Shown here one piece after another: positions 4,508-29,978 of a stretch of 43,983 nt of DNA. This DNA is from a virus: the IMG/VR virus record IMGVR_UViG_3300031269_000026, positions 1 through 43,983 of that record. One strand, given 5' to 3'. The position numbers and the translations under genes were made by a program. Position 1 is the stretch's first letter. The number at the start of each line of letters is the position of its first letter. The notes under the pieces are model-generated. The model searched no databases, was not told where the DNA came from, and worked only from the letters and a program-made list of their open reading frames with translations.

Positions 4508-4526
4508 GGTAGTGTCTCAGTTTGAA
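4508..4526. repeat. Left terminal inverted repeat
   Basis: GGTAGTGTCTCAGTTTGAA, perfect inverse complement of 6787-6805. The transposase stop codon lies inside it, at 4517-4519 on the minus strand. Confidence 0.95.
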
Positions 4527-7078: not shown

Positions 7079-7102
7079 ACTCGCCCGACGTGTCACGCCT
7101 GA
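7022..7102 (+). CDS. 26-residue membrane micro-protein (copy 2)
   Basis: It has the same first 19 residues as the micro-protein at 2368 (LIFTACALLLIASA span), then a different tail (TRPTCHA). Its stop overlaps the end of the convergent tailspike gene by 10 nt. It may be a by-product of the duplication rather than a maintained gene. Confidence 0.35.
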   Translation: MTHAPLIFTACALLLIASATRPTCHA

Positions 7103-10100
7103 GGCACCACAGTTATTGTAAAGCCTATTGTTCCGTTGGGGGACGTGACATTTGTTGGCCTGACAATCGTCCCGCCCGTGTGGGGGGTGATTATGACTGA
7201 AAATTGGTGCTTGCTTGAGGCGACAGGCCCTTCAATGTCGAATATGCCCTCGCTGACTGGCGCGGATGGATCAAGCGCATAGTCCGGCGATGCCAGCGGG
7301 CTAGACGACCCGAACCTGTGACCCACCACCACCAGTGCGCCGTTCAGTGGCTCCTCGAACGTGTCACTCAATGTCGGCGTGTAGTTTGCGCCTAGCGTCA
7401 GGGCGCTGTCACCCCGCAACGTGGTGCCCGCTGCCGTTGTAGTGGTGCGGGCGGAAAAGGTGAACGTGAAGGTGTCTGACGCTTCGGTTTCCGTCACTTC
7501 TTTGTAAAAGAAGTGGGCTTTGTAGCTGCCGTTGGACACTTCTGTGTCCCAGCTTGTCCCGTTCCACGTGTTGATCGGTCCCGCCGTCCACCCGGCGGGG
7601 AGCGGCATGTCGGCATCGCTGGCTTGTGCCCCCAGTGCAATTCGCAAATCGCCAGCTTCTGCGGGGCCGAAGGTCACAGTCCGAAAATCTTTGTAGGTAT
7701 GTACAGATTCATCGAAGTCCTGCAGGAGATAGACCCCATCGGGCAGCGCCGTAGTTGCCGCCGATGCCGTGACGACAGTCGCCAGGTTTCCGGCTCGGTC
7801 CTCATGGGTGAAGTAGATGTGGTAGGTCGTCCCGGTATCCAGCCCGGTCGCCTGAGACGTCAATGGTGTGCCTGCTGCCGTGGCTGCTATCTGGCCCGCG
7901 CCGTTCGCCGCTGAACCCGTGTGGTCGTTTCCGGCAGCAATCTGCGCGGTCGTCGGGGCTGTTTCCGATGTGCTGGCAACCCACCAGATCGCCCCCTCTG
8001 CGTCGTCGGTCGTGACGCTGATATCGAGGGCAGCCGCAGACGCTTCCGCAGCCGTCGGCAGTGTCAGGACAGGCGAGGTCGTGTCGGCCACATAGACCGA
8101 TGACCGTGCGCCGACGAATGCCAGCGTTGTAAACGGTACACCATCGACGTCGCGGTGCAGATCGAAGCCGTAGAGCGCCTCCCATTCGGCCAGCTTGGCT
8201 TCCAGATTGCGCGCGCCAAGGCCGATGATCACCGACCCGTCTTTTAGCGAATAATCCCCGTTGTCCGGATCGGTGAACACGTCAGTCGGCAAAACCTCCG
8301 TGTCGAATACGCTGTTCATGTTGGCGCTGTTGGCGGCACCGTTGGTCAGCAGGTTGCCCGAGACGTCGAAAAACGTGGTGTACCCGGCCCCGGTCTGGCC
8401 GTTCAGCCTGCCCGCCAGATTGTTCATCACATGATGCGTGTGTTGACCCTGCGGTGTAGAAGACCCCACGTCGATGTTGCGGCCTTCCAGCGTGTTGTTG
8501 ACCACCCAGTTGTGGCTTGGGTGCACAGGTTCAGCGCCCCCGCCGCCGCCGTTCTGGTCGCGGATCGCATCGCCGCCGGTGCCGCGCGGGAAGGACGACA
8601 TGCCGATGATGGTATTCGTCGATTGCTGCCACGTTGCATAACCGCCGCAATTCTCGACCTTGATGCCCCAATACAGCACTGCGTCCGACCCGACGTAGTT
8701 ATTGAACAGGTTGGCGTGTGCGCCCTGCCCGGAATCGCGGAACCGGCTGTACGCAATCAGCGCATCGTGCTGCGAATAAAGCTGCAAGGGCGATTGTTCG
8801 GCGCGAAGGACGTCGCAGTGCAGCAATCTCAAGCCGTCCGATGCCCTCTCGTCGCTGTAATCCGTCAGACTGATGCCATAGGAGCCCAAAACGTCCGCCA
8901 CGCTGACGTTTTCCAGAGTCAGATTGGAAAGGATTTCACCCTTGATGCCGTTGCCGAAACACGATCTTGCCAGAACATGCCGCACGCTCGCACCGGAAAG
9001 GCGGCCTTCGTCATTTCCCAGCCGACCAATTGTTAACGGCGTGCCGGTAAAGTGTCGCAGTTCAAATCCCTCGAACGATACGTGATCGGAACCATAAATG
9101 CCCACGCCATTGCTGCGGGCCATGACCTCCATGCCGTTTGCAAGATGCGTCTCGTCGTTCGGCCAGACAAAATAGGTCACGGTGCCGTCGCCGTTGTCTG
9201 CCAGCCCCCAGCGTCCCTGCGTCATATTCGGCAGCGCATTCAGCAGACCATAGAGATTGCCGCTGCCGTCCGGCGCCGACGCAGGTGCAATTGTCACCGT
9301 GTCGGATGTAGCACTGACGACAGGCGTGATGCTGGTGAAGTTTGGAAACCTGAAATAGGAGGCCCACATCCGTTCAAGCTGGGCCGGGGTGTATTCACCG
9401 ATCACATCCGCATCGGTGATCGTCTCGATGTCACCCGATCCGTCCAGCCCGAACGCGGTGGCCGAGTGATAATTTCCGGCATCGTTGTAGATTAGCGGGT
9501 TGGGACCGTCCGCCGCCCGGTCATACGCAATAGGCAGGATCGCATCGTCCTCGATGATATGCGCCGTGTATAGGCTTCCATCCGAAGGCGACCCAATCAC
9601 GGTCTTGGCAATCGTCACCTTCCAGATCGGCGAGTCCGCCACACCCAGCGTGGACCCCAGCACCGCCGCATCCGCCGCCGTGCATTGTGCCCAGCCAGTC
9701 AGCGCCGCGCCCCCGGTGATGATCGGGCGCTCCGTCCCGTAGCCTGCCAGCACGTTCTTGTCCCCTGATGTGCCGTCCCATGCCGTGATCGAGACATCTT
9801 CGCGGTACGTTCCAGCCCTCACGCGAATGGTCCGCTGCCCGCCTGCCGCCTTGGCCGCATTGACCGCGTACTGGATCGTTGCGAACGGCGCGGCGAATGT
9901 GCCCGCGTCGCCATCGTCACCGTCAGGCGCGACGAAGTAATCCCCATCCACGCCGAGATTGATCGACTCCGACCAGCCGTAGGACAGCAAGCCCCCGCCC
10001 CGCCGCAGACCAAATCCAAGATTGATCGACTCCAACCGGCCGTAGGACAGCGACGACAGCAAGCCCCCGCCCCGCCGCCCGCCAAGGCGCATACCAAATC

Positions 10101-10113
10101 CAAGATTCATCAT
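7093..10113 (-). CDS. Tailspike with right-handed beta-helix and C-terminal beta-sandwich domains
   Basis: About 1006 residues from the ATG at 10113, chosen because GAGGA precedes it and the upstream gene stops at 10124. The N-terminus is a Gly-rich duplicated segment (LGFGLRRGGGLLSYG), probably the virion-binding part. From about residue 55 a pectate-lyase-type start (YFVAPDGDDGDAGTFAAPFA, TIQYAVNAAKAAGG) leads into a long beta-helix, the fold used to bind or cut host polysaccharide. Near residues 670-780 a fibronectin-III-like stretch (TGLDTGTTYHIYFTHEDRAGN) follows, then a Thr-rich beta domain to the end. The active-site residues cannot be assigned from sequence alone. It is the last gene of the lysis-tailspike block. 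Confidence 0.8.
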   Translation of the reverse strand: MMNLGFGMRLGGRRGGGLLSSLSYGRLESINLGFGLRRGGGLLSYGWSESINLGVDGDYFVAPDGDDGDAGTFAAPFATIQYAVNAAKAAGGQRTIRVRAGTYREDVSITAWDGTSGDKNVLAGYGTERPIITGGAALTGWAQCTAADAAVLGSTLGVADSPIWKVTIAKTVIGSPSDGSLYTAHIIEDDAILPIAYDRAADGPNPLIYNDAGNYHSATAFGLDGSGDIETITDADVIGEYTPAQLERMWASYFRFPNFTSITPVVSATSDTVTIAPASAPDGSGNLYGLLNALPNMTQGRWGLADNGDGTVTYFVWPNDETHLANGMEVMARSNGVGIYGSDHVSFEGFELRHFTGTPLTIGRLGNDEGRLSGASVRHVLARSCFGNGIKGEILSNLTLENVSVADVLGSYGISLTDYSDERASDGLRLLHCDVLRAEQSPLQLYSQHDALIAYSRFRDSGQGAHANLFNNYVGSDAVLYWGIKVENCGGYATWQQSTNTIIGMSSFPRGTGGDAIRDQNGGGGGAEPVHPSHNWVVNNTLEGRNIDVGSSTPQGQHTHHVMNNLAGRLNGQTGAGYTTFFDVSGNLLTNGAANSANMNSVFDTEVLPTDVFTDPDNGDYSLKDGSVIIGLGARNLEAKLAEWEALYGFDLHRDVDGVPFTTLAFVGARSSVYVADTTSPVLTLPTAAEASAAALDISVTTDDAEGAIWWVASTSETAPTTAQIAAGNDHTGSAANGAGQIAATAAGTPLTSQATGLDTGTTYHIYFTHEDRAGNLATVVTASAATTALPDGVYLLQDFDESVHTYKDFRTVTFGPAEAGDLRIALGAQASDADMPLPAGWTAGPINTWNGTSWDTEVSNGSYKAHFFYKEVTETEASDTFTFTFSARTTTTAAGTTLRGDSALTLGANYTPTLSDTFEEPLNGALVVVGHRFGSSSPLASPDYALDPSAPVSEGIFDIEGPVASSKHQFSVIITPHTGGTIVRPTNVTSPNGTIGFTITVVPQA
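9955..10103 (-). repeat. Internal duplication in the tailspike N-terminus
   Basis: Two imperfect direct copies of about 65-75 bp encode INLGFGxRxGG..GGGLLSxxSYG. The second has an extra SSL insertion. A third INLG start follows. This lengthens the Gly-rich leader before the beta-helix. Confidence 0.7.
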
Positions 10114-10123
10114 ATCGCCGTCC

Positions 10124-10324
10124 TCATGCGTCGCGCCCTCGCAGGCATTTGAAAGCCGCCTGCGATGTTCCGCGCGGCACGTCTGCATTTTCGTTCAGCC
10201 ATTCGACCATGGCCTTTCCGGTTTTGTAGCAATCGCCCTGGTCGGTGAAATGGCGCTGGTACGCCGCGCACTGCGCATCGCCAACAATGGTAAGGCACAG
10301 CTTGACGGTCAGGAGCCACATCAT
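10124..10324 (-). CDS. Small secreted cysteine-containing protein
   Basis: A 66-residue protein with an N-terminal signal-like segment (MMWLLTVKLCLTIVGDAQC) followed by a polar domain with further cysteines (GDCYKTG, FKCLRG), which suggests a periplasmic, disulfide-bonded product. Its start overlaps the o-spanin stop by 4 nt, so it belongs to the lysis cassette. I recognise no family; a role at the envelope during lysis or superinfection control is possible. Confidence 0.6.
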   Translation of the reverse strand: MMWLLTVKLCLTIVGDAQCAAYQRHFTDQGDCYKTGKAMVEWLNENADVPRGTSQAAFKCLRGRDA

Positions 10325-10521: not shown

Positions 10522-10678
10522 CCTGTATCCTTTCAATCGTGTCAGCCGTGTCCTGAGCGGCTTCCTGCGCTGCGTCCTTGGCTTCCCATGCCATGCCCAG
10601 CCACACCAGCGCCACGGCCACCACACCGGCCCCTAGCGTCAGCCATACGCCGCGCGGGATGATGCCGAGCAGGGTCAT
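10460..10678 (-). CDS. Inner-membrane spanin (Rz-like)
   Basis: A 72-residue protein with one N-terminal membrane span (VWLTLGAGVVAVALVWLG) followed by a helical, probably coiled-coil segment rich in Ala, Asp, Glu and Gln (KDAAQEAAQDTADTIERIQD) that would lie in the periplasm. This is the topology of an i-spanin, though shorter than lambda Rz. The start overlaps the methyltransferase stop (ATGA), and the o-spanin gene begins within its last 62 bases. Confidence 0.65.
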   Translation of the reverse strand: MTLLGIIPRGVWLTLGAGVVAVALVWLGMAWEAKDAAQEAAQDTADTIERIQDALDAYAGCNWADRLHGACD

Positions 10679-11457
10679 AGGTCCATCGCCTCTTGCGTTG
10701 CGGGATTTTGCTGCTCGACAAAGAGATCCGGCTGGCGGTACGCTTCCTCCACCCGTTTGCACGCTATGTCGAAATAGTCCGAGTCCAGTTCAATCCCAAT
10801 GCCGCGACGGCCCAGCTTGGCGCAGGCGACGAGAGTGGTGCCGCTGCCCATGAAAGGATCTAGGATGGTGTCGGCATTATCAGGTAGGTGGCCTATGCAC
10901 CATTTAATTACGCCAAGAGGTTTTTGCGTTGGATGTTGGCGAATGTCGTCACCCTTGCGGATCATTCCATTCCAGCGCCAATAAATGCGCCGCACCGCCT
11001 TGTCTAAGTTTGTCCACGCAAGTTCACAGTCGGCAAAATCATTACCGCCATTTTGCTTGTCCCAAACCAACCAGCACGAGGTGGGCGGGAGGTGATAGTA
11101 ATTTCCGCCAAAAACAATTGAACTTTGCGCCATTGAAATCGCTATGTTGACGTGCGCATCTAAGGTTTTAGTGTCCCATTCCTTGTGTGCATATTTGTCA
11201 GCTACAGCCAGCTTGCCGCGACTTGCTGACTTAGCTCCACTTTCACCAATCCCATACGGTGGGTCAGTCACAACCGCATCTACCTTCCCCAACCCCGGCA
11301 TAACCTCCAAGCAATCACCCAGCAGCAATTCACACCGGCCAATCACGCGCGCGCGCTTCACGCCCGGCACATTCGCCACAAGCCACTTTTCACGCTCACA
11401 CGCGATGGCCAGCGTGTAGCAGCCCTTTGCATCAGCTTCCCAGATGTAGTCTTTCAT
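10675..11457 (-). CDS. DNA adenine/cytosine-N4 methyltransferase
   Basis: A 260-residue DNA methyltransferase that uses S-adenosylmethionine. The catalytic DPPYGIGES motif is at about residue 65, a target-side HPTQKP motif at 175-180, and the SAM-binding DPFMGSGTT motif at about 200. The catalytic motif before the SAM motif is the beta-type order seen in N6-adenine and N4-cytosine enzymes. The start at 11457 overlaps the stop of the holin-like gene (ATGA). An orphan phage methylase with no partner nuclease most likely marks phage DNA against host restriction. The target sequence cannot be read from the protein. Confidence 0.9.
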   Translation of the reverse strand: MKDYIWEADAKGCYTLAIACEREKWLVANVPGVKRARVIGRCELLLGDCLEVMPGLGKVDAVVTDPPYGIGESGAKSASRGKLAVADKYAHKEWDTKTLDAHVNIAISMAQSSIVFGGNYYHLPPTSCWLVWDKQNGGNDFADCELAWTNLDKAVRRIYWRWNGMIRKGDDIRQHPTQKPLGVIKWCIGHLPDNADTILDPFMGSGTTLVACAKLGRRGIGIELDSDYFDIACKRVEEAYRQPDLFVEQQNPATQEAMDL

Positions 11458-11651
11458 TCCTGCGCCCTCATACGCCCGACAAACCCCGCCACCGCCAAAG
11501 CCGCAATGATCCAAGGCCGGTATTCATGCGGCACCATAGCTTTCAGATCGTCAGGCAATTCCGCCCACACCAGCGGCAACAGCGCCAGGGCGGCAAAAGC
11601 CTGCGTGGAATGCCAGCGTAAAGCGTCGCGGGCGTCTGATACGAGTTTCAT
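11454..11651 (-). CDS. Holin-like small membrane protein
   Basis: A 65-residue protein with a short charged N-terminus (MKLVSDARDALRWHS) and two hydrophobic segments (FAALALLPLVW and WIIAALAVAGFVG) separated by a polar turn, ending RMRAQE. This matches small two-span holin-like proteins of alphaproteobacterial phages (DUF7940-like layout). A holin forms inner-membrane holes that release the endolysin. The endolysin, spanins and this gene are within 2.3 kb, which supports the role. The call is by topology and pattern. Confidence 0.6.
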   Translation of the reverse strand: MKLVSDARDALRWHSTQAFAALALLPLVWAELPDDLKAMVPHEYRPWIIAALAVAGFVGRMRAQE

Positions 11652-17549: not shown

Positions 17550-17825
17550 CTACCGGCCCAGGTCGCCACCCATCTGCGGCTCATCAAAGAAGGCATCATC
17601 TGCCGTGATGATGGCGGCAGTCTCAAGCACGGCTGCGCAAAATTCCTCCCGGGTTTCCGGAAGCCGGACGGTTTCGGGCATCGCAAGTGCCTTTTCCACG
17701 TTTCGCGCCGTCTGCCACTGCGCATCTGCAATGTCGGGAGCCCCGGCCAGCGTCACTGTATTGGTGACGATAGCGACGGGAATTGCCACGCAAACGGTCA
17801 GGATGATCGCCTCGGACACCTTCAT
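17550..17825 (-). CDS. Small membrane-anchored virion-region protein
   Basis: A 91-residue protein with an N-terminal hydrophobic segment (AIILTVCVAIPVAIVTNTVT) and a soluble remainder (ETREEFCAAVLETAAIITAD) ending QMGGDLGR. It starts within the last codon of the giant gene (ATGA overlap), so its translation is probably coupled. The role is unknown; its position between the ejection protein and the spike suggests a late product. Confidence 0.55.
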   Translation of the reverse strand: MKVSEAIILTVCVAIPVAIVTNTVTLAGAPDIADAQWQTARNVEKALAMPETVRLPETREEFCAAVLETAAIITADDAFFDEPQMGGDLGR

Positions 17826-20800
17826 GGAATCAGCTTTTGCAAGCGCAGGAACTCCTTGTTGAATTGAACATATAGGACCTGCTGCGCTTTCTCAATGCGC
17901 TCGTATTCCGCCATGCGGGCCCGATCATCGAGGCTCTTGTCAAGGCGGGCCTTCATCCGCTCCCTGTTCAGCCCGCTGACCTGGCGGTTGATCCTGTTCG
18001 CCTGCGTGTACATGCGGTCGAGGATCTTGTAGCGCGCATCCACTGGTTCCCCTGCATCGTCGCCCTGCTTTTTGCGAGAGTGCGCGTCCCTGACTTCGCT
18101 CAAGCGGTCGTAATAGGCGCGACGATCCATCCAAACGCCGGTGGTGACTGTCACCTTTGGAAGGAACGGTATGGCCCGGTCATCAATCAGATCCGCCTTT
18201 CCGGTCGCGGCCTTGACCGCGACGTCGATCGTGTCCGTCCAGAACGTGCCCGCGCTGCCGGTTGCGGTCCCGATGGCGTGATCAATGTATTCCGGTGAGA
18301 CATCCAGCCACCCGCTTTGCGCCGCGTTTCCGCCTGTTTCCCGGTTGAGATAGTCGGCCACCTGGCGCGACATTTCAGAGACCCCGACATAATGCTTGTA
18401 GGCCATGGGCCCATAGTCGCTGAAATCGTATTCCGGGCGGATCGGGTTGCCCAGCCAGTTCTCGTTGTTCCGGAACTCCATTATGTCCTTCAAAAGAATC
18501 GGCGTCACCATGTCGGCGGGGTCGGTGAACCCCAGGGGCGATACGTCTGACGCGGCAGCGATTGCCACGTCCAGCATAGCCTCGTCTGCCGTCTTGACCC
18601 CGCGAAACACCTTGCCGATCTGGCGCCCAGCATAAGGGAACACCGAATAGACGTAGGGCATTGGCACGGACACGGCATCGTCCATCTGGCCCACGCCGCC
18701 CACACCATCTTCGCCCTGACGAACCATGAACAGGAAATTGCGCCGCGACTGGTAATCGGGGATCTTGTCATAGGCCAATTCGTCATCATCATCCGTGGCC
18801 GACAGCGAGGCGTTGACCAGATCCTCCATCAGCCCGTAGGACAACAGACTTGCCCCGACCGCCAAGCCGTACTTGCTGGTAAACACCGAAAGGAACACCT
18901 GCAGGCCTTGAATAGCCGCGTTGAAGAACAGGAACATTGCGTTTAGCCACGTCCAGTTGCCGCGGCGGTTAAAATTCACCGTGAGGTTCTTGGCCAAAAG
19001 GGCGGCGTCCTGCTTGGACCACCCCCGCTTGCGGGCCTCGACGTAGGACGCCAGCCGTATGGCGTTGTCCACTGCAATGTTGGTTCGCTCGATCATGCCC
19101 AAAGGCACGTTGTCCCGCGTCGAAAAGAACGCCCGGGGTCGGGTCGCTACTTTCAGGATCCGGGCGGCGCGATTGCCGCGCGCCAGGTCGATCCGGCGCG
19201 ACATATCCTCAGTTCCGGCGGTCGGATTGTCGAGCGTCCAGAAACTGATCTTAGCGCCTGCTTCCTCAAACTCTTTCCAGTGTCTGGTCCATACGGTGTT
19301 TTCCTGGTTGCCCATGCCCTTGAAGGACCCCATGAAGGCCTTGCCCCATGTCTTTGATACAGCCGCACCAAACCCCTTGGAGTCCGTCATCTGCGGCAGG
19401 TTGATCTGCGCGGCCTGAAAATCCCGCAGCGCGTTCGTAACGACAAACTCAGGGTTCAACATGGTGAGGATCATGGATTTGTAGCGTGTATAAGCCCCCA
19501 GTACGCGGACAACGCCGTTCAACTGATCCGCGCCGACCGCCCCGAGCGCATTAGCCAGCCGGTCATCATGCAGTACGATCCTGTGTTCATGACCCTGGAT
19601 CTTGATCGCAAACTCGTTGGGCTCCAATCGGCTGTTGGCAGGTTGCTCGACACGCGTCTCCACAAGCCCGGTCGTGCGATTGTAGAACCGCTTTTGCTTA
19701 GGCTTTTTCACCGACCACATGGCGTCGGACGGGTGCGCCTTGGCCAGTTCATAAAGTGCCTGCGACACGCGGTTTTTCTCAGCCCGGATAGAAACCTCCT
19801 TGGCCTGAGTAATTGCCGATATCAGCGGATTGAAGGCCATTGAGTTTCGGCCCATGGCGCGCATGCTTTCCGGGCCCCGCACGTTGTACCGTGGGCCGGT
19901 GCGGCGCGCGTCCAGTGTCGCCTCCGCGCCATCGCTCTCATCAAAGCCCTGCAACGGCACATAATGGGCGTACTGGTTTTTCCAGATTACATATTCCTTG
20001 GCCGACAACAGCCCGGCATCGCGCCGCAGTTTCAGTGTCCGTTCGCGCAGTTCATCAACCAAGTCGCCAATCTGGTCCAGTTCCGCCTGGTGCGCGCCGG
20101 ATGCCATTTGCGCAAGGTATGCGTCAGCATCCGCGTCCGTGATGCCCGACCCGCCGTCAGGCATGGCCAGGTTGATCGAAGCGATGCGCGCGTTTCGCTC
20201 CTTGGCATGACGTGCCGCCAGCCAGTCGCCCACGTTTTCCGTTGTCAGACCGCCATTGGTCTTGGCAATGATGTCGATGATCGGCTTGGTGAAATCCTCG
20301 TCGATCACAAACAGATGCCGCCCGGCCTTGCCCGAGAATGTCGTTTCGGTGGCGTAGGCATTGAGGTGGTTGGGCACGGGCCGTCCAGTGTCGGCCTCGA
20401 TCGCCTGCTGTGCCCGCAGTACGGGTAAGAAGCGGTCCTGCACGTTGAACCGGGCCTTGTCGATGTTGTCGTAGATCGCGGCGCCAACGCCTCGGATCCT
20501 GCCAAAGACAGAGACACCGGATCGCGTCAGTTCATCCCAGATTACCCGGTCGGGCACATGCACCGGCAGCGGCCCCGGCGGCGGTGGCCCCGGCGGTGTC
20601 GGACGGATGCGCGGCATCGGCGGGTTGCGCTGTTCCATAAGGGACGCGATGGATGCCGACTCCGCATTGCGCGCTCCGATCTGCCCGGCGATGACCTTGC
20701 CGAACACGCTTTCTGCGGTGGTAAATCCTTCGCCCCGCATGGCGTTGCGGATTGCCTTGAGCATCCGGTGGATCTTGTTGAACGCCCGGACCAGCAAAGA

Positions 20801-23800
20801 ACCCTGCGGTGCCGAACGGCTGGCCGCCCGCTGCGCAAATTCCTCCGCAATGGCTTCCTCGATCATTTCAGACGGCAACAGGTCAGGATACCGCGCCCGA
20901 ATGTCGTGTTTCTCGACCCAGCCGCGCTTGGCCGCAGCCTCAAGGGCCGACCATTCCTCCTTGGTAAACAGGTTCATCGCCCGCATGGCGTGGATCGCCT
21001 CATGGTACAGCGTGGCCATGGGGTTGATCGCCTGCCCGATCAGAACGTCGATCTGGCCCATGCCGTTCGCGCGCATGGCACCCTGGCGGTTTGCGCCGGG
21101 CACATCCATGTCCAGACCGACACGCTTGAGGTTCAGCCGGTCCAGTTCCGCCCGCAGCGCAGGTAGCATTGCCGATGCGGCATCACGATCCATGGCGGTG
21201 CCCGTGGCGGCGGGGCGCTGCTCTGCGGCGATTGGCTCCACAATTGGGTTCGCATCTTCAAAACCCTGAACTGGCTTGGCGATGTCCTCGATGAACGCCT
21301 TGCGGGCATCCTCACTGCGGAACGCAAAGGTCGGGCCCTTGCCACGCTTCTGTGCGGCCTTGTGCCACCATCCGCCGTGCGTCTTGGCAACAGCATTGAG
21401 GCGAACGAACTGGCCCTTGTCGACACGGCTTTCCATCGCGACGGCAGGGAACACCTTTCCCGCCCTCGATGTCACTGTCGTCATGGTTTGCGCGCCAGGA
21501 TCGGACGACACGGGCGCGGTCACGCGCGTCCCGGTGTCACCCTGGGCGGCGGCATCCGCTGCGTCTGCGGCATCCATGTCAGCTTCAACACCAGACGGGC
21601 CGATGCGATCGGGCCGGGCCGGGCCTGCGATGCCTTCAAGCCGTTCGAAGAAGTCGGCAATGGTGCCGGATCCGGTCATGTTGATGTTGGCGGCAGGCGT
21701 GAACGCCTCGGGCTTCATCACCCGGTCGAAGATCAGGACCCGGGCCGCAACTGCGGTGCCCGCACGCTCGAACGTCACGGACGGCAGGGACACGTCAGCC
21801 GAAAGGTTCCACTCGATGGACGTCTTGCCTATCCGGTCCATGAGTTTGCCGAATTGCTTGTCAGCTGCCGGGCCGGTCGGGACCAGCGCAACGACGCGAC
21901 CGCCGGGCCGCGTGTGCTGCATGGCTTTCAGGAGGTGGTCATATGCTGTCTTGCCGCCCGAACCGAACGGCGGGTTCATCACGACCACATCGTACTTGTT
22001 CACAATGTTCAGGTTCTCGAACGTGTCGTTGACCACGCGCGACCCCGGCGCCAGCAACTCGGCGCGGCTCGACAGATCCGCAGACGGCTCGACAATCGTC
22101 CGGTCGGCATGGCCGGGAAAGTAGCGCGCGATCGCCCCGTCACCAGCAGACGGTTCAAGCACCTTGTCGTAGGGCCTGACACCCGCCCACTCGACCATCT
22201 TGAGCGCCAGCGGTTCAGGCGTCGGGAAAAAGTCCAAACCCTTGCGCTGGTCGCGCTTGCCCTTCATTTTCTGGCGGCCGTAATAGTGCGTCTTGGCCTT
22301 GTCGAACTCGCTGGCCGTGTTGTCCACGCTGTCCCGTGCGCGACCGCCGATCCCGTCGCTCGATGATGGCAGGTTCCTGTCGGCCTCGGTGTAGGCATCG
22401 ACAAAAGCCTGTTGGATGGCCCGGGCCTCGTTGCCCATGGCGAGGTTTTCAACGGCGCCGGACTGTTCGGCGATGCGCCGGGCGAAGGCCTCACGCTCCC
22501 ATGCTGTGCCGATCGTGTAGTAGCGATAGGGTGCATTGGATACGCTGCCCACGCGTCGGGTGCGTCCCTCGGCCTGCAGGCTTGTGGTTGGCTTGGTCGG
22601 CATGCCTAGGTTGATCATAACGCGTTGGTGGCCGCCGGTGGTGTCGTGCAGGCTGATGCCGCCGGACCCTGCGTCTGACTGGACAACAAGCACGTCGACA
22701 CCGGACCCATCCAGATTGAACGCGTCCTTGTTTTCGGACCTCTTGCCTTTCGATATGGTGCCGTTGAACTCTCGGGCCTGATCGCCGAACGCCTCCATGA
22801 TCTGATCTTTCGGCGCTGTCAGACTGCCAAAATCCAGATCGTTGAGCCACGGCAAGTCGCGCTCCATCTGCATGCGCGCGGACTTGAGGTCCTCTGTTCC
22901 TGTGACCTTGAACGGACTGGTCGCCCCGCCCACGTTGAAGTCATGGAACACCACGACCTTGCGCCCCATGGCGAGGTGCTTTCTGATGTCTGGAATAGCC
23001 GCCTCGGCCTTCATGGCTTCCAGTAGCTGCTGGCGTTTGAGATATGTGAAATTGCGATTGACGGCCTTTCCCAATTCCTCCCAGCCCATAGCCGCAACCC
23101 TTTTTGCGTCGATGCCCTCCTGACCCGTCGTGCTGTCCTTGATTGCGGCCTGCAGTGCGGCCCGCTCCTCGGACTGCTTTTTCCAGATGTAGGCAATGGC
23201 CTCGTCAATCTTGCTGCCGATTTTATTCTCGACCGCAACAAACTTGCGGTCATAGTCAACATCAACCTCAAGTTTGCGCCCCCACAACGACCCCTCGCGC
23301 TTGAGCCTTTCGTGAAACTCGCGCTGGAACACGCCCCGGTCAACTGCGGCCTCGGGTTGGGTCAGCTTGTGATAGCGGATCCTGTATCCAAAGTTCTCGA
23401 CCATGAACCACTCGCGCCCGCCCTGATCGCTGCCTTCGCGGCGCTCGTCCTTCGGGTAGTCGAACAGATACCCCTCGCCGTAGTCCGTGTTTTTCTCATA
23501 GGAAAACGGCGTGGCCGACATGAACAGGACATTGCTACGCGGTGCTGTCGCCTTCTTGGCCGCGTCCCGTGCTTCCTGATAAACTGCGGCCATGGCTTCG
23601 GACTGTCGGTCCTTGTTGGTAATCGCGCGGGCCTTTGCCATCGCATCCCGTCGCTTCATCAATTCCTTGTCGAAAAGGTGCGTGGGCTTGTTGCTGATCG
23701 CGCGCAGGGTCCGCAGGGCTCCGGTTTGCTCCCCGGCCTTGTTCTGGGAAAGCGTGTGCGCCTCGTCGGCGATCACAAGATCCCATTCCCGATCTGCCAA

Positions 23801-26800
23801 AGTCTCATTGTTGGCTAGGTTGGCATAGGTGGTCACAAGCACAGGGCCGCGGCCCTCGCCATTGTCGCTGACGCCGTCCATCTGTGCCGCGTCCAATCCG
23901 GTCATTGGCGCAGACTCAACCCAATTGCGGGCTTCCTCCGCAGACCTGACCACGACCAGAACGGCCTTCGCGCCCCTGTCGACCGCGCGTTTGGCCGCGC
24001 CCAGCCCGGTGAACGTCTTGCCCGTGCCGACACCGTTGGTGATCAGCATGCCAAAGCCTTGCTTCTTGCCGTCCTCGGGCCGGAATAAACGCCGTTCGAT
24101 CCGCACCACGTCATCCACTTGCGCGGGCTGCAGTTGCGGCACGCTCTTGGCCACCTCCGCATGGTGCCTGGTCGGCGGGCTGTAGGTGTTGGTTACGCGG
24201 TCGGGGCTGTTTGTAGCAGTTTTTCGAGTTTGATCTGATCCTGAGTCGTCAGGCCGTAGTCCCGGCTGGCTGCGATCACCGCCATCTGCACCGTCTCCAT
24301 CACGGTCAGGCCGTCGCCCAGAGGGTCGCCCGTCGCCTTGAACGCCTGCACCGCTGGTGCCTCCCACAGCGTCGGCATCACGGCCAGGTAGGCCAGCGCC
24401 ACCGTCTCGCTGCCTGCCTCCTTGGTCAGCCGCTTCATTTCGGCCGCCATCTCGTCGTCCAGGACGTCCTGCGGCAGGGGAAACATCGCTTCCGCCCAAC
24501 TGGTCCTGAGATCCTGCGTTTCCGCTATCGCGTTCCACACTTCCGCCGGGTGCCTGTGCATCTGTCTCTCCTGTCAGGTCGATCTTGCCAGAACGCGCGT
24601 CGGCAAGGAAGCGTTCGAAGTAAGGGCGCATGGCGCGGAATGTCTCGCGGGTCAGGCCCTCGGCCAACAAAGGTCGCGCCATTGCGATATAGGCATCAGT
24701 GTCCGACATTGCATCAAGATCGAAGCCTTCGATGTTGCGCGCGAAGATCGGGACAGTGGCCGCGTAGGTGTCATCGTCAAAGGACGCGGTGTCCTCCTTC
24801 AACCCGCCGGGTTTCTTGCCGAACAGGTTGTTGAGCGCACTCGCGTCGGCAGACTTGGACGGCTTGCGGGGCGCGCGGGCAGGCGGCGGCGTCATCTGGA
24901 TCGGTGCGGCGTCTGTGGCGGCAGGGCCTTCCGCCTTATCCGATTCCGCACCAAACAGCGCGGCCTCTGCTGCGTCGAAGTCGGTTACTTCAGGCCCTGA
25001 TACCCGCCCGTTTCCGTCGCCACCTTGCGAATTTTGCGGAGTTGATCCAGTTCCGCCTCGTCCAGCGGGTGCAGGCCGTCCCGCTTCTCCGTCTCGACCA
25101 TCAGCCTGATCCGGGCCTCTATCTCGGATCGGGGTGACATCGAATCCAGCCCGTCCAAGCTGAGCGCGAACCTTGGCATCGGTTGCTTTGAATACTTCTC
25201 GGACATCAATGCTCTCCTTCTCAACAATTTGGGCAGAGTTGCCCGAAAAATCAATGACCCCATGCCGATGCAGGATCAGGTTAAAGATATGCCCATGAAC
25301 CGCATCCGCGACGTCTGCCGAAAGCGTCCCGCCTTTGACTTGCGGCAAAAAGTGCTGGAACAAAACCTGATGCACGCGATTGACAACGTCCTTGCGCGCG
25401 CCAAACGCAGCCTTGTCGTCCCACTTGTCCGCTGCCTTGTACCCGGGCCCCTTCCGAGCCGTGCTGACCGCACCCTTGTGCCCCATCGCGCGCACCTCGG
25501 GGAAGCCGACGCCCATTATTGTGATGTCTGCCGGGGAAAAGCCTCTATTGCTCGGGTGGTTGTGGGTGACGTACCCCACGAGACCGGCGTTTGCGGCGCG
25601 GTAAAGCGCATAAGACGGGTCCACTGACCCTCTGTCGCCCGATATCACCTCAAGCGGCAGGCCGTCCACGTCGAGCGCAACCAATATCTCCACGCCCGTA
25701 GCTTTGCCCTCCGCAAGAACAAACTCATCGGCACGCGCCTTTCGTGCTTCCATGGTTGGCAGGGCTTCCATGTCTGCCAGAAACGCAATGGAGTCCGCGC
25801 TTGTCGAATAGTCACGGCTTACCACCGGGAGTTTTTCGCCCGGCTCACGATATCGGTCGAGGCGTGCAGTCATTTTTGCCCGCGGGTCGGCATCAGTGTC
25901 CCGCCCGCCACCATCCTCGATATCGCTCTGTGCGTTGAACAAGGGCCCGCCGTCATCCTGCGGCGTGGTGGTGCCTATCTTGGACTGGTTTTTTCTGGTG
26001 TCGGCCTGCGCCTTGGCTTTGGCGTCGGCGGCGGCCTTTACCGCAGCGGCATTGGTGTCGCTGTCCCGCTCAAAGCCTGGCATGACGCCTTGCTCGCCCT
26101 CGGGCGTTTGTTCCGTGTTGCCAAACAAGGACGCCTCGGCGGAGTCAAATGGGTCTGCCGCCGGGGCATCTTGTTCCGGCGTTACTTCCGGGGCTTGGGC
26201 TTGCCCCCCTTGCGGAGCCAGTTGTCCACCTGCGCCGCCGCCAGCCTGGCCCTCTTGGCCTCCTGCGCCAGTTCCTTGAAGCGATCCGATGATATCCCTG
26301 AGAAACGCCCGGCGGGCTCTGGCGACGGGTTCTCCGGATTTGACGGCACGGGCGGCTTTTGTGAGCGCATCACTGATCGGTCCCTTCATGTTGGCTTGGC
26401 GCTGGATGTATTCCAGAACCTTTGCGTCCTGCTGAACCTGCGCCTCGTTGGCGTTCTGGTCCAGCGTGTTGCCCGCGCCCTCGATGGCTTCGCCGTTCTT
26501 CAACAGCGTGTTGAACGCGGACTTGTTCTTGCGAAGATCCTTGACGGCCCCGTCGAGAACCTTGGCCCGTTCCAGATATAGGGACTGCGCAACCTGTTCG
26601 CTACCGAACATATCGGTCTGGGTCTCGGTCGCCGTGTTGGCAGCGGCGTCTCTGGCGATCATTTCGGCCTGCGCTGCGTTGATGCTCTGCTTTTTGCCTA
26701 GAGTCGTCAGCATGCCCAGAATGTCGGCCTGTACGGCCTGATCCTTGACCACACGCCCGACCACAGACCCATCACGATCACTTGCGACGTTATTCGCCAC

Positions 26801-29224
26801 CATGCCAAAGGCGTCACCGGACAAGCGGCGCAGCCCTTCGGCGTCGCGGACAAGCGCGGACTTCGGCGGCAAGCCAAGATCCTCGATGGACTCGTTTCGG
26901 TCGCGCAAGACCCTTGCAGCATCCAGCGCCGTACCTGTGCCCTCGCCGATGTTCTTGAGCGCGGCAAGAGACATGACCTCCTTGGCGGTATATCCGTCCG
27001 TCTCGTTGTAAATAAGTGCGGGCATGCCGCCCACATCAGCCTGTCCAGATTCCGCCGCGCGCTTGGCGAGGCCAACACGCTGGTGGCCGTCTGCGACAAT
27101 CAGGCGCCCGTCCTTGGTGCGATACAGCATTGCTTGACCGGCCCGCGCCGGGTCAAAATTCCTGACACCCTGTAGCCGATCCGTGACGCCGGACTCATCA
27201 CCGCCGCTCTTGTACTGAAATATGCTGGCGTCAGTCTCAAGAGACAGCATTTCCTCGCTGGTCAGAAATTTGCTCTCAGGCCCGCCAGACCCGGAAGGCG
27301 TAGGCGTCGCAATGTCGGCCTGCTGACCTGCAGTAGCATTCTCGGCGGGGCGGGATCCGGGTCCCATATCGGCGTCAACCGCCCCACCTTGATCCGCACC
27401 CGGGAGGACGGGCACGGATTCCGGTGTCTCTGTTGCTCCATCATCGACAACCTCGACGGCCCCGGTCTGCGTGTCGAAACGCACGGTGCGGCCTGTCTCG
27501 CGCTGTTGATCGCCCTGCCCTTCGATTTCGGGCAAAAGCTCGTACCGATCTGGCGCATCCGGATCGAGCGGCATTTCCGGCGTGTCTTGCGGCGCGGCCT
27601 CTGGTGCGGCCTCTGGCGTTGCAGTTGGTGCTGCGGCGGGCGTTGTGGTTTCCTCATCGCGGTCTCGACTGCGGCCAAGGGCATTCGCCCCGCCGCCCAT
27701 TAAGCCGCCAAGGATCGCCCCGACAAGCGCCTGCTTTCCAACGTCCTTGTTGATGATGTCCTGTTCTGGGTCGTAGACGCCCAAGGCAATCAGGTTTTGC
27801 CCGATCGCCAATCCGCCCTCCTGGATGCCTTCCTCGATGCTGCCTTTGAATGTTGCGGATGCGAACCGACCGAGGCGACCAAGGATGTCACCCCTTACGC
27901 TGTCAGGAAGTCGGCCCAGTGCGCGCCATAAGGGGATGGCCTCGGACGTGCCCATGAACCCGGCAATTGCGGCCGCCGTCTGCGCATCGCGCTCGCTGGC
28001 GCCGGACTGCTTTGCCCGGTCATAGGCTTCCGTCTTGGCGACATCGGCGCCCATTTGCGCGGTGACAACCGCGCCATATGGTCCGGCAACAATGGGCGGC
28101 ACCATGAACGCCACCACAGACCCCGCTCCAGAAAACAGATCAGACCAAAGGGAATCGTCCTGCGGCGGCACACCAAAGGTTTTGTCCGTCCAGTCTTTCA
28201 GGGCGTCAGCCGTCCGCTCTGCCTTTTGCGTCCTGTAGCCTGCAAAGACCGGGCCGAACTCTGCGGTGTCGCTCCACTGCGCAACGGCTTCGGTCGCCTG
28301 GTCGAGGCGCTGGGTGTATGTAGCGCGCTCCTGCGGTGTCATTGGCGACTGGCCGTCATCCGACAAGCCTTTTGCAAGGATGTCCTCGAACGACTGGACT
28401 TGGCGCGCGGCCTCCTTCACCCATTTCGGCGCGTCTCGCTTGATCGCATCGAAAAGAGTCTTGTCGTTGATGCCTCGGGCGCGGACGATGCTTTGGAAAA
28501 CCCCCGATGCGCCTTGCGCGACTTCCTGGCCGCGACGCGTTGCCAGATCGCCAAAGGTTTCATCGGCGAAGGGGTCGACGGCTTTTGCGGCAGGCGGTGC
28601 GCCCGGCACGTTGGTCGCCTGCTGGTACTGCTGCCAGCCGATACCCTTGCCCTGCATGGCATCGAGAATGGATTGCCCGTTGCCCGGTATGGATTGCCCG
28701 GAAGGCATTGCGGGGCTCGGCATGGCCATTGGCGGTGCGGGTGGCGTCACTTGTGGTGGGGCGGCCTGCATCGGTGCGCCCGACGGCTGCGTGGCCTGCC
28801 GGTATGCCTGCTGTCCAAAAGACGGTCCTTGCATGGCCTGCAGCAAAGCCTCGCCAGTGGCCGGGACGATCTGTTGCGCCGCGACTGGTGGCGTCTGGCC
28901 CGGCGCCATGGGCCGCAGGGATGTTACGGGCGGCAGGTCCTGCTTCGGCATTGGCGCTGCGGCTGGGGCATTGACGCCGCGCATCATGGCCACAATGTCT
29001 TGCGGAGCGGACGGCATTGCGGGCTGCGCCGGTGGCGTCTGCGGCATGGCGGGGCGCGTCTGAGGCTTGGGCTCCGGCGCGGTTACGCCGACCTTGCCAA
29101 AGAAATCCGCCCGATCCATGTCTGAATAGAACCGCGCGTGCAGTGCTTCCGCCAGGGACGAGTCGTCAAGATCCCCGTATTCCGGAAATTTGCGCCGAAT
29201 GTCGGAAATTTTGATGTCAGCCAT
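17822..29224 (-). CDS. Giant polyvalent ejection protein, DarB-like (3800 aa)
   Basis: A single 3800-residue ORF. In order: a PxYxDLDD-type N-terminal motif (1-50); a Pro/Ala/Gln-rich linker; hydrophobic helices near 375 and 508; a ParB-like nuclease motif (ADGHQRVGLAKRA, about 714); a JAB/RadC-like HNHPS motif (about 1221) with S..D nearby; a helicase with Walker A GVGTGKT (about 1735), DEAH (about 1820) and a second helicase half (SDAGSGGISLHD, about 2187); an adenine-methylase NPPF (about 2418); a zincin HEAIH (about 2742); and an LPD38-like C-terminus with a hydrophobic region near 3440. Such proteins, like P1 DarB, are packaged and injected to protect incoming DNA. Three linkers carry nested +1-frame ORFs. 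Confidence 0.85.
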   Translation of the reverse strand: MADIKISDIRRKFPEYGDLDDSSLAEALHARFYSDMDRADFFGKVGVTAPEPKPQTRPAMPQTPPAQPAMPSAPQDIVAMMRGVNAPAAAPMPKQDLPPVTSLRPMAPGQTPPVAAQQIVPATGEALLQAMQGPSFGQQAYRQATQPSGAPMQAAPPQVTPPAPPMAMPSPAMPSGQSIPGNGQSILDAMQGKGIGWQQYQQATNVPGAPPAAKAVDPFADETFGDLATRRGQEVAQGASGVFQSIVRARGINDKTLFDAIKRDAPKWVKEAARQVQSFEDILAKGLSDDGQSPMTPQERATYTQRLDQATEAVAQWSDTAEFGPVFAGYRTQKAERTADALKDWTDKTFGVPPQDDSLWSDLFSGAGSVVAFMVPPIVAGPYGAVVTAQMGADVAKTEAYDRAKQSGASERDAQTAAAIAGFMGTSEAIPLWRALGRLPDSVRGDILGRLGRFASATFKGSIEEGIQEGGLAIGQNLIALGVYDPEQDIINKDVGKQALVGAILGGLMGGGANALGRSRDRDEETTTPAAAPTATPEAAPEAAPQDTPEMPLDPDAPDRYELLPEIEGQGDQQRETGRTVRFDTQTGAVEVVDDGATETPESVPVLPGADQGGAVDADMGPGSRPAENATAGQQADIATPTPSGSGGPESKFLTSEEMLSLETDASIFQYKSGGDESGVTDRLQGVRNFDPARAGQAMLYRTKDGRLIVADGHQRVGLAKRAAESGQADVGGMPALIYNETDGYTAKEVMSLAALKNIGEGTGTALDAARVLRDRNESIEDLGLPPKSALVRDAEGLRRLSGDAFGMVANNVASDRDGSVVGRVVKDQAVQADILGMLTTLGKKQSINAAQAEMIARDAAANTATETQTDMFGSEQVAQSLYLERAKVLDGAVKDLRKNKSAFNTLLKNGEAIEGAGNTLDQNANEAQVQQDAKVLEYIQRQANMKGPISDALTKAARAVKSGEPVARARRAFLRDIIGSLQGTGAGGQEGQAGGGAGGQLAPQGGQAQAPEVTPEQDAPAADPFDSAEASLFGNTEQTPEGEQGVMPGFERDSDTNAAAVKAAADAKAKAQADTRKNQSKIGTTTPQDDGGPLFNAQSDIEDGGGRDTDADPRAKMTARLDRYREPGEKLPVVSRDYSTSADSIAFLADMEALPTMEARKARADEFVLAEGKATGVEILVALDVDGLPLEVISGDRGSVDPSYALYRAANAGLVGYVTHNHPSNRGFSPADITIMGVGFPEVRAMGHKGAVSTARKGPGYKAADKWDDKAAFGARKDVVNRVHQVLFQHFLPQVKGGTLSADVADAVHGHIFNLILHRHGVIDFSGNSAQIVEKESIDVREVFKATDAKVRAQLGRAGFDVTPIRDRGPDQADGRDGEAGRPAPAGRGGTGSTPQNSQGGDGNGRVSGPEVTDFDAAEAALFGAESDKAEGPAATDAAPIQMTPPPARAPRKPSKSADASALNNLFGKKPGGLKEDTASFDDDTYAATVPIFARNIEGFDLDAMSDTDAYIAMARPLLAEGLTRETFRAMRPYFERFLADARSGKIDLTGETDAQAPGGSVERDSGNAGSQDQLGGSDVSPAAGRPGRRDGGRNEAADQGGRQRDGGAGLPGRDADAVGGTSGAGVQGDGRPSGRRPDRDGDGADGGDRSQPGLRPDDSGSDQTRKTATNSPDRVTNTYSPPTRHHAEVAKSVPQLQPAQVDDVVRIERRLFRPEDGKKQGFGMLITNGVGTGKTFTGLGAAKRAVDRGAKAVLVVVRSAEEARNWVESAPMTGLDAAQMDGVSDNGEGRGPVLVTTYANLANNETLADREWDLVIADEAHTLSQNKAGEQTGALRTLRAISNKPTHLFDKELMKRRDAMAKARAITNKDRQSEAMAAVYQEARDAAKKATAPRSNVLFMSATPFSYEKNTDYGEGYLFDYPKDERREGSDQGGREWFMVENFGYRIRYHKLTQPEAAVDRGVFQREFHERLKREGSLWGRKLEVDVDYDRKFVAVENKIGSKIDEAIAYIWKKQSEERAALQAAIKDSTTGQEGIDAKRVAAMGWEELGKAVNRNFTYLKRQQLLEAMKAEAAIPDIRKHLAMGRKVVVFHDFNVGGATSPFKVTGTEDLKSARMQMERDLPWLNDLDFGSLTAPKDQIMEAFGDQAREFNGTISKGKRSENKDAFNLDGSGVDVLVVQSDAGSGGISLHDTTGGHQRVMINLGMPTKPTTSLQAEGRTRRVGSVSNAPYRYYTIGTAWEREAFARRIAEQSGAVENLAMGNEARAIQQAFVDAYTEADRNLPSSSDGIGGRARDSVDNTASEFDKAKTHYYGRQKMKGKRDQRKGLDFFPTPEPLALKMVEWAGVRPYDKVLEPSAGDGAIARYFPGHADRTIVEPSADLSSRAELLAPGSRVVNDTFENLNIVNKYDVVVMNPPFGSGGKTAYDHLLKAMQHTRPGGRVVALVPTGPAADKQFGKLMDRIGKTSIEWNLSADVSLPSVTFERAGTAVAARVLIFDRVMKPEAFTPAANINMTGSGTIADFFERLEGIAGPARPDRIGPSGVEADMDAADAADAAAQGDTGTRVTAPVSSDPGAQTMTTVTSRAGKVFPAVAMESRVDKGQFVRLNAVAKTHGGWWHKAAQKRGKGPTFAFRSEDARKAFIEDIAKPVQGFEDANPIVEPIAAEQRPAATGTAMDRDAASAMLPALRAELDRLNLKRVGLDMDVPGANRQGAMRANGMGQIDVLIGQAINPMATLYHEAIHAMRAMNLFTKEEWSALEAAAKRGWVEKHDIRARYPDLLPSEMIEEAIAEEFAQRAASRSAPQGSLLVRAFNKIHRMLKAIRNAMRGEGFTTAESVFGKVIAGQIGARNAESASIASLMEQRNPPMPRIRPTPPGPPPPGPLPVHVPDRVIWDELTRSGVSVFGRIRGVGAAIYDNIDKARFNVQDRFLPVLRAQQAIEADTGRPVPNHLNAYATETTFSGKAGRHLFVIDEDFTKPIIDIIAKTNGGLTTENVGDWLAARHAKERNARIASINLAMPDGGSGITDADADAYLAQMASGAHQAELDQIGDLVDELRERTLKLRRDAGLLSAKEYVIWKNQYAHYVPLQGFDESDGAEATLDARRTGPRYNVRGPESMRAMGRNSMAFNPLISAITQAKEVSIRAEKNRVSQALYELAKAHPSDAMWSVKKPKQKRFYNRTTGLVETRVEQPANSRLEPNEFAIKIQGHEHRIVLHDDRLANALGAVGADQLNGVVRVLGAYTRYKSMILTMLNPEFVVTNALRDFQAAQINLPQMTDSKGFGAAVSKTWGKAFMGSFKGMGNQENTVWTRHWKEFEEAGAKISFWTLDNPTAGTEDMSRRIDLARGNRAARILKVATRPRAFFSTRDNVPLGMIERTNIAVDNAIRLASYVEARKRGWSKQDAALLAKNLTVNFNRRGNWTWLNAMFLFFNAAIQGLQVFLSVFTSKYGLAVGASLLSYGLMEDLVNASLSATDDDDELAYDKIPDYQSRRNFLFMVRQGEDGVGGVGQMDDAVSVPMPYVYSVFPYAGRQIGKVFRGVKTADEAMLDVAIAAASDVSPLGFTDPADMVTPILLKDIMEFRNNENWLGNPIRPEYDFSDYGPMAYKHYVGVSEMSRQVADYLNRETGGNAAQSGWLDVSPEYIDHAIGTATGSAGTFWTDTIDVAVKAATGKADLIDDRAIPFLPKVTVTTGVWMDRRAYYDRLSEVRDAHSRKKQGDDAGEPVDARYKILDRMYTQANRINRQVSGLNRERMKARLDKSLDDRARMAEYERIEKAQQVLYVQFNKEFLRLQKLIP
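24193..24561 (-). CDS. Nested ORF 3 inside the giant gene (+1 frame)
   Basis: A 122-residue ORF over giant residues 1554-1677, ending just before the helicase domain. The ATG at 24561 follows AGGAGAG by 6 bases. By hand count about 101 of 122 codons end in G or C. The protein is helical and normal in composition (HPAEVWNAIAETQDLRTSWA; MAAEMKRLTKEAGSETVALA; YLAVMPTLWEAPAVQAF). The giant frame here is Gly/Asp/Arg-rich (GRPGRRDGGRNEAADQGGRQ). This is the best supported of the three nested ORFs. I recognise no family. Confidence 0.65.
   Translation of the reverse strand: MHRHPAEVWNAIAETQDLRTSWAEAMFPLPQDVLDDEMAAEMKRLTKEAGSETVALAYLAVMPTLWEAPAVQAFKATGDPLGDGLTVMETVQMAVIAASRDYGLTTQDQIKLEKLLQTAPTA
24985..25206 (-). 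CDS. Nested ORF 2 inside the giant gene (+1 frame)
   Basis: A 73-residue ORF over giant residues 1339-1413. The ATG at 25206 follows AAGGAG by 8 bases. The product (MSEKYSKQPMPRFALSLDGL, then EIEARIRLMVETEKRDGLHP and a LDEAELDQLRKIRKVA helix) has ordinary globular composition. The giant frame here is the low-complexity DRGPDQADGRDGEAGRP stretch. It ends just before the giant frame returns to a normal segment (EVTDFDAAEAALFG). No family is recognised. Confidence 0.55.
   Translation of the reverse strand: MSEKYSKQPMPRFALSLDGLDSMSPRSEIEARIRLMVETEKRDGLHPLDEAELDQLRKIRKVATETGGYQGLK
26182..26370 (-). CDS. Nested ORF 1 inside the giant gene (+1 frame)
   Basis: A 62-residue ORF in the +1 frame over giant residues 951-1014. 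Its second half (DRFKELAQEAKRARLAAAQV then DNWLRKGGKPKPRK) is an amphipathic basic helix whose codons almost all end in G or C. Over the same bases the giant frame reads GTGAGGQEGQAGGGAGGQ. The ribosome-binding site is only moderate (AAGGGA). Its first half overlaps a normal-looking part of the giant, so it may alternatively record an ancient frame change. Function is unknown. Confidence 0.4.
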   Translation of the reverse strand: MRSQKPPVPSNPENPSPEPAGRFSGISSDRFKELAQEAKRARLAAAQVDNWLRKGGKPKPRK

Positions 29225-29978
29225 TACGGATTCCTAAAGGGTCGCTTTCAGTCGGTCCCGGCATGCCGGATGCGGGCGGTGTCATGGTTGGGCTTGTCGA
29301 CATCACCGATGGTCCCGCCGCGCCCGGCTGTGCCAAGGGCGTTGTGGGCGCTGCTGGCGATGCACTCTCGCTGCCGGGCGTCCGGTATGGATCGCCGCCG
29401 GGCGTGGTGTACGGAACAAGCTCGCCGGTGCGCGTGCGGCCGTAAAGGATGCCGTCCGGCCCTGGATATTCCCCGTAGAGCCTTGGTGACGACTGTCCGC
29501 CGCCTGAACGCCGCGGGGCGCTGCTGCGCCTTGAACCGCCGGTTGAAGCGCCCTTGCCCTGCTTCATCATGTCGGTCAGCGATGCCTTGAGCAAAGAGCC
29601 GACTTCGGGCGGCAGGTCAGGGTCAGCCATAAGATCGAGAATAGACCGCATCTTGTCGTCGCCGCCCAGCTGCGTCATGGCCTGGTCCATTGCGCTGTCC
29701 TTCCGCTCATCCTCGGCAGTCTTGTAAAGGCCTTCTGTCCGCGATCCGACCGCGCCGCCGACCATTGGCGCCAGAAATGCCAAAAGCGGGGATCCGGACC
29801 CACCGACGCTTTGCCCGGCTTGTTGCAGGGCGGCTTGCACCATCTGGCGTTGCATGTCGGAACCACGCTCCGGAAGAACGCCGCCAGGGCCGCGCGAGAA
29901 GATACCGGACATGCCGCCGCCACCGGCGGGAGGGACAAACGGGGGCGTACTGCCGCCCATGTTAGCGAACTTTGACAT
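29217..29978 (-). CDS. Low-complexity virion/ejection protein
   Basis: A 253-residue protein, rich in Gly, Pro, Ser and Met in its first and last thirds. A helical centre (MQRQMVQAALQQAGQSVGGS; LLAFLAPMVGGAVGS) resembles the short hydrophobic helices of podoviral ejection proteins. It overlaps the giant gene start by 8 nt and abuts the upstream gene through TGATG. Its place between the hub genes and the giant suggests a small internal virion protein. Function is inferred from position. Confidence 0.55.
   Translation of the reverse strand: MSKFANMGGSTPPFVPPAGGGGMSGIFSRGPGGVLPERGSDMQRQMVQAALQQAGQSVGGSGSPLLAFLAPMVGGAVGSRTEGLYKTAEDERKDSAMDQAMTQLGGDDKMRSILDLMADPDLPPEVGSLLKASLTDMMKQGKGASTGGSRRSSAPRRSGGGQSSPRLYGEYPGPDGILYGRTRTGELVPYTTPGGDPYRTPGSESASPAAPTTPLAQPGAAGPSVMSTSPTMTPPASGMPGPTESDPLGIRNG

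Follow-up and report, generated by a model that had tools for sequence, protein, structure and literature searches.

A 3,800-residue phage-type polyvalent protein and reciprocal motifs at the touching ends of neighbouring phage gene products

Described polyvalent proteins and the locus in the window

How phages select the giant proteins that are taken into the head and exit with the DNA is for the most part unexplained, the closest precedent being the N-terminal signal of P1 DarB. DarB (2,255 aa), which counters restriction in cis, is packaged in the head, and its N-terminal 30 residues bring a reporter into the capsid (PMC9024508), so that N-terminal loading signals have a precedent in this capsid targeting sequence. 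It carries an adenine methylase (residues 91-272) and then an SF2 helicase (Walker A at 857) in one chain. In Burkholderia phage JC1, the giant Bcep22-like, DarB-like protein gp69 (4,515 aa) was identified by 51 unique peptides in CsCl-purified virions, with a score second only to that of the capsid protein (PMC9144972). The phage-type polyvalent proteins of Iyer et al. (2017) include combinations of DdrB-type ParB, methylase-SNF2, zincin and LPD38 domains similar to those found here; DdrB-ParB and LPD38 were reported in the phage type only, and RadC (JAB) in polyvalent proteins of conjugative elements only (PMC5512222). The accessible part of the text of a 2025 survey of the ParB-CTPase fold describes phage ParB folds fused to methylases, with NTP binding, and does not name DdrB or polyvalent proteins (PMC12704722).

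The window, that is, the whole stretch of DNA analysed, is a virus record of 43,983 bases. An open reading frame of 3,800 codons with an ATG start runs on its minus strand from 29224 to 17822 and makes up 26 % of the record, in agreement with the quarter given in the initial annotation. The frame is real, as that annotation had assumed: the computed chance of 3,800 codons without a stop at 60 % G+C is approximately 1e-54, and relatives were found across most of its length. PHROG 10691 matches the protein over long stretches (E=0), so its family is already catalogued, without a function. The gene closes the virion gene block, a late block on one strand (terS-terL-portal-MCP-tail-tag gene), downstream of the terS, terL, portal, major head and tail genes, all on the minus strand. 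As terS is truncated by the right end without resuming at the left, and no terminal repeats were found in the record, the record represents an incomplete genome and is not circular. The features of the locus are:

43570-43983, minus strand: small terminase gene terS, cut by the right end of the record
29217..29978, minus strand: gene directly upstream of the giant gene, 253 aa, overlapping it by 8 nt; no family match
29226..29243, minus strand: DPLGIR codons at the C-terminus of the upstream protein, which ends ...TESDPLGIRNG because the stop lies two codons further on
17822..29224, minus strand: phage-type polyvalent protein, 3,800 aa, from the open reading frame, profiles, motifs and relatives

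The best explanation, to which as a whole we give a probability of about two in three, is that the open reading frame codes for a polyvalent protein which is packaged in the virion and ejected, and which belongs to a marine podovirus with relatives among alphaproteobacterial phages and prophages. The domain anatomy, the conserved catalytic residues, the gene context, the homology to a virion protein and the paired end-motifs were observed directly; from them we infer packaging, ejection, docking and every activity with its target.

Domain anatomy and conservation of the giant protein

The following parts were recognised in the predicted protein, all on the minus strand:

29084..29224, minus strand: N-terminal tag, residues 1-47 (ISDIRRKFPEYGDLDDSSLAEALHARFYSDMDRADFFGKVG); the same motif occurs at the N-termini of large phage proteins
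28061..28138, minus strand: hydrophobic segment, residues 363-388 (Kyte-Doolittle >1.4)
27674..27730, minus strand: Gly-rich hydrophobic segment, residues 499-517 (Kyte-Doolittle)
26642..27277, minus strand: ParB nucleotide-binding fold and helix-turn-helix, residues 650-861 (ADGHQR 711-716, N758, fold)
25430..25756, minus strand: JAB/JAMM domain, residues 1157-1265 (E1179, H1221-x-H1223-x6-S1230-xx-D1233; fold)
22400..24160, minus strand: SF2/SNF2-type ATPase, residues 1689-2275 (GVGTGKT 1731, DEAH 1820, SATPF 1903, EGRTRR 2219)
21695..22261, minus strand: N6-adenine DNA methylase, residues 2322-2510 (TP 2335, EPSAGDG 2357, NPPF 2417)
20615..21157, minus strand: zincin-like metallopeptidase motif, residues 2690-2870 (HEAIH 2741, EE 2789-2790)
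17852..20500, minus strand: C-terminal module, mostly helical, residues 2909-3791, common to JC1 gp69 and to Vibrio and temperate coliphage giant proteins
18173..18775, minus strand: LPD38 (PF18857), residues 3484-3684 (Pfam E 5.4e-37)

Each of the six domains named in the initial annotation (ParB-like, JAB-like, helicase, methylase, zincin and LPD38-like) was recovered, the last with the Pfam value listed. The hydrophobic regions it mentioned are present, including a third, weak stretch at residues 3427-3461, but they are few and weak. Residues 48 to approximately 205 are Pro/Ala-rich.

The ParB-like part was identified by its fold. Residues 640-1310 were modelled with AlphaFold2 (mean pLDDT 79), and Foldseek matched the nucleotide-binding and helix-turn-helix domains to ParB/Noc (E 1e-4). 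Comparison with ParB-CTP complexes gave Z 8.8 for 7bnr (135 residues, rmsd 11.2, two domains), and further fold matches were PadC (Z 8.5; 95 residues, rmsd 3.1), Noc (7.3) and KorB (7.2). Box II (GxxR) is present, G713 and R716, together with the H of GH..R and N758, being kept in 85 of 85 relatives. Box III reads K-N and not E-N (K757 in 67 of the 85), and since the usual Glu is missing, canonical CTP hydrolysis may have been lost; in non-canonical ParBs this box frequently diverges.

The JAB-like part was recognised by its motif together with a fold match of Z ~7. The metal site (E, HxH, S and D) is unchanged in nine of nine relatives. Canonical JAB/JAMM domains have the spacing HxHx7SxxD, and all nine have HxHx6SxxD, one residue short, so that canonical isopeptidase action may have been lost. 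The fold resembles PfJAMM1 (Z 7.1; 104 residues, rmsd 3.7), an Rpn11 homologue (7.0) and BubCD (6.9), and cytidine deaminases, which share the general fold, match at Z 6.0-6.5; values below 8 were taken as supportive only together with the motif. Pfam RadC gave no match, and Prok-JAB only a weak one, in two of the nine members. The presence of a JAB site within a phage-type chain extends the catalogue of Iyer et al., where RadC is given as conjugative-type only (PMC5512222).

The helicase assignment agrees with Pfam ResIII (1e-7), and its DE and EGR..R residues are kept in 87 of 87 relatives. The methylase has a PHROG match (8.6e-29) and the features of the gamma-class N6-adenine methylases (TP cap, motif I and NPP(F/Y)), EP..G.G and NPP being kept in 84 of 84. 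The zincin part was assigned by motif only, HExxH and a downstream E, both kept in 35 of 35 relatives; the model of this region was of moderate quality and had no PDB fold match. The model of the C-terminal region (residues 2660-3800) gave no PDB fold match above noise, which does not show a new fold. Pfam searches with ten sub-pieces returned nothing in the first 1,700 residues or between residues 2900 and 3300, padloc and NCBIfam gave generic helicase and methylase matches only, and PDB sequence searches with JAB, ParB and C-terminal alignments gave nothing convincing.

The protein combines disparate catalytic and binding domains with LPD38 in one chain encoded among virion genes. It is a true addition to the polyvalent proteins, varying in some features: with it, the phage-type polyvalent enzymes gain a chain that unites a ParB clamp, a JAMM-like site and a helicase-methylase pair in reversed order.

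The nearest relatives are found in Rhodobacteraceae prophages and in Ruegeria phage 45A6. ANH49087.1 of the latter (3,912 aa) is a nearly full-length homologue with the same domain order, the tag and an upstream open reading frame ending in DPLG, but it is only 33-50 % identical and is annotated as 'hypothetical protein', and no study of ANH49087.1 was found. A Salipiger prophage protein (4,039 aa) has 49-61 % identity, and a Thiosulfatihalobacter relative 66-69 % over residues 1475-3796. Serratia phage Parlo gp081, the Klebsiella ZX1 PLxRFG protein and a Pseudomonas phage Skulduggery protein share the helicase-then-methylase block (42-45 % identity), whereas their N-termini and the C-termini encoded upstream are different and they lack the tag.

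P1 DarB also has an adenine methylase and an SF2 helicase in one chain, and matches the window protein only in the methylase part (E 3e-8) and, marginally, in the helicase part. Its order is, however, the reverse of that in the window, and direct comparison found no ParB, JAB, zincin HExxH or tag in DarB. The earlier likening to DarB-type proteins thus stands for a phage-type polyvalent protein with methylase and SF2 helicase, and fails for the domain order and the additional ParB, JAB, zincin and tag. Judged from this comparison, the giant protein in all likelihood works like DarB, though by domain order it is no DarB. A relationship between the tag and the N-terminus of DarB was also considered, and no homology was detected by sequence.

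The initial annotation had raised inactive motifs in all close homologues as a point against it. This was checked and is not so: the catalytic residues of the five enzymatic parts are essentially invariant in 9 to 87 relatives, drawn from viral contigs, prophages and isolates, which argues that the activities are under selection. The same invariance speaks against the protein being chiefly structural, a packaged ejection protein whose tag and helical C-terminal module form a trans-envelope conduit and whose enzymatic domains are accessories swapped by recombination. Such a role would account for the C-terminal module being the most widely shared part, for tag-carrying proteins of 500-900 aa without recognised enzyme domains in the same slot after ejection genes, and for the differences in domain order and inserts among relatives (JAB follows the methylase in L046, and in some relatives hundreds of residues are inserted between methylase and zincin); we nevertheless consider it unlikely, and prefer a packaged protein with working enzymes.

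Reciprocal motifs at touching ends of neighbouring products

The N-terminal tag, approximately 46 residues long, is similar in otherwise dissimilar phage proteins. Among the loci read it was found at extreme N-termini only, in 92 loci and in addition two tandem duplications. When viral contigs were scanned with the tag alignment, the position not being imposed, 79 new loci were obtained; in 77 of these the match starts 0-3 residues from the first start codon, and the remaining two (L336 and L347) have tandem N-terminal copies. The carriers are mostly 500-900 aa or 2,400-5,300 aa long and, once the tag is removed, fall into many clusters unconnected by BLAST. The N-terminal region 60-560 of the giant protein is not common to the 500-900-aa tag proteins.

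In 87 of the 92 tag loci the open reading frame immediately upstream ends in DPLG(I/L/V)R, an ending found in 90 of 24,453 open reading frames (at least 60 aa) of the loci read. Three such endings were scored as non-adjacent, one of which (L347) is in fact adjacent, its start having been mis-set; of the other tag loci, one shows DPLEIR and another is truncated where the contig stops. Loci fetched regardless of the tag included 186 polyvalent-type genes with neither motif, three with both, none with DPLG but no tag, and three scored as having the tag without DPLG. Phage 45A6 is among these last three and does have a DPLG open reading frame, in another frame; its annotated upstream gene (L002, 15542-17100) ends in a different frame from DPLG, probably because of a frameshift or an annotation error. 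The 253-aa upstream gene of the window belongs to the same cluster as the upstream gene of 45A6.

An independent scan by DNA pattern alone, DPLGIR-stop overlapping ATG, gave 118 matches, 112 of which lead into a tag; in the remaining six the frame is short on one side or both. After deduplication there were 137 pairs with 31 upstream clusters, 31 downstream clusters and 48 combinations, cluster numbers that vary with BLAST sensitivity and pair counts that are not independent events, since many loci are related. Reciprocity, adjacency and position at the touching ends of neighbouring products are thus established for the predicted proteins. Upstream genes had PHROG matches to 'DNA ejection' (7 of 49), 'released from the phage upon host infection' (six) and 'DNA ejection protein' (three), and also to virion structural and lytic families. 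The few named matches of tag carriers were to DNA ejection, DNA transfer, minor head, endolysin, DarB-like and methylase families.

The stop of the upstream gene abuts or overlaps the downstream start in 57 of the 87 pairs, and TTAGGA within the DPLGIR codons resembles the Shine-Dalgarno sequence of the giant gene. In many abutting pairs, including that in the window, the TTA-GGA of the L and G codons doubles as the downstream ribosome-binding site, so that L and G may be conserved in part for both purposes. It could be proposed from this that DPLGIR and the tag are solely a translation-coupling signal in the DNA, a Shine-Dalgarno sequence with start context, and no protein motifs. Against this, nearly all synonymous codons are in use for D, P, L and G, including CTC and GGC; BA3, FGH and Vibrio 1.183 keep DPLGIR though their downstream genes have a separate AGGAG and a longer gap; the tag extends over 46 aa downstream of the start; and no RNA fold was found at the junction (z +1.45). 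A signal in the DNA only is therefore highly improbable, and conservation at the protein level is clear from the codon comparison.

The paired reciprocal end-motifs, as judged from their distribution over very different phages, look like a loading or docking system that has not yet been described. They are simple, lend themselves to direct tests and seem to be unreported: a literature search of limited coverage found no paper with the peptide DPLGIR or DPLGLR, and for the tag core, among the matches listed, only milk-peptide and similar papers.

For polyvalent genes without the tag, a general upstream C-terminal motif was sought, but TG(Q/K/R/T) endings occurred in 10 of 192 against a background of 1 %, which gives no rule; these were mainly in the Parlo/ZX1-like group. 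In that group (L057, L060, L062, L068, L064) an ending of the form D(T/N)KTGQM... tends to take the place of DPLGIR on the upstream gene. Untagged giant proteins (L037, L036, L239, L243) have other recurrent short N-terminal helical modules (MATYEELMAALRKADAAGD..., MSSYLDDFKKQNPGVEKYSDAEI...), which are perhaps alternative loading tags.

Packaging and proposed course of infection

The C-terminal 892 aa of the giant protein match JC1 gp69 over 98 % (E 3e-50), and homology between the two was demonstrated at this module. Both are giant late proteins with a methylase, a helicase and a C-terminal module of ~890 aa, gp69 differing in its N-terminal lytic transglycosylase, in having the methylase before the helicase and in the lack of a reported tag. 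As the homologous module belongs to a virion protein, packaging in the head and ejection are likely, and the giant protein probably travels in the head and enters the cell together with the DNA, which it would protect. Relatives that lack the tag, such as the JC1 protein with its lytic transglycosylase at the N-terminus, are packaged as well, so the tag is not shared by all. Packaging in the phage's own virion is read from a homologue, which leaves some room for a protein made early in the infected cell and acting there without being carried in the virion. The location of the gene at the end of the structural block, its overlap with an ejection-type gene and the abundance of gp69 in purified virions make this very unlikely, and a packaged protein is preferred.

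We tentatively propose, at somewhat less than even odds, that podovirus-type phages have a two-part loading system in which the C-terminal DPLG(I/L)R of an ejection-type protein and the 46-residue, probably three-helix tag of the next product dock interchangeable cargo, ranging from proteins of 500 aa to polyvalent enzymes of 5,000 aa, into the head or ejectosome. The DPLGIR of the upstream ejection-type protein and the tag of the giant protein would bind each other directly, or via the portal or head, and in this way place the giant protein in the head or the ejection apparatus; alternatively to direct docking, peptide and tag may share one binding partner. Whichever cargo follows the ejection gene would then be loaded and ejected, the C-terminal LPD38 module possibly serving as a shared virion-related scaffold. 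If this is correct, a short, widespread pair of reciprocal end-motifs would allow ejected effectors to be recognised in metagenomes by a sequence rule, the loading step could be tested directly, and chosen proteins could be delivered by laboratory phages.

The giant protein would exit with the leading DNA. In the cell, the ParB clamp with its helix-turn-helix and the SF2 ATPase may hold the incoming DNA and travel along it, the ParB part being, by its fold, a putative NTP-gated DNA clamp whose hydrolysis is doubtful given the altered Box III. The N6-adenine methylase would modify the entering DNA and so shield it in cis against type I and III restriction, as DarB does, and the zincin might process its own chain. 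The JAMM-like metal site could remove or cleave a protein or nucleotide tag; bacterial ubiquitin-like conjugation defences would be a plausible target. The protein might also act on more than one host system, as suggested in the initial annotation.

A second, separate DNA methylase gene is found at 10675-11514 on the minus strand (N6_N4_Mtase, E 1.5e-23), giving the phage at least two methylases. Elsewhere in the record, the open reading frame 4517-5404 (minus strand) has weak matches to IS1-type transposases (E 1e-7), the product of 2465-3172 (plus strand, 235 aa) contains BspA-type leucine-rich repeats (E 2.5e-10), and that of 7093-10188 (minus strand, 1,031 aa), with weak pectinesterase/beta-helix matches, is a tailspike candidate.
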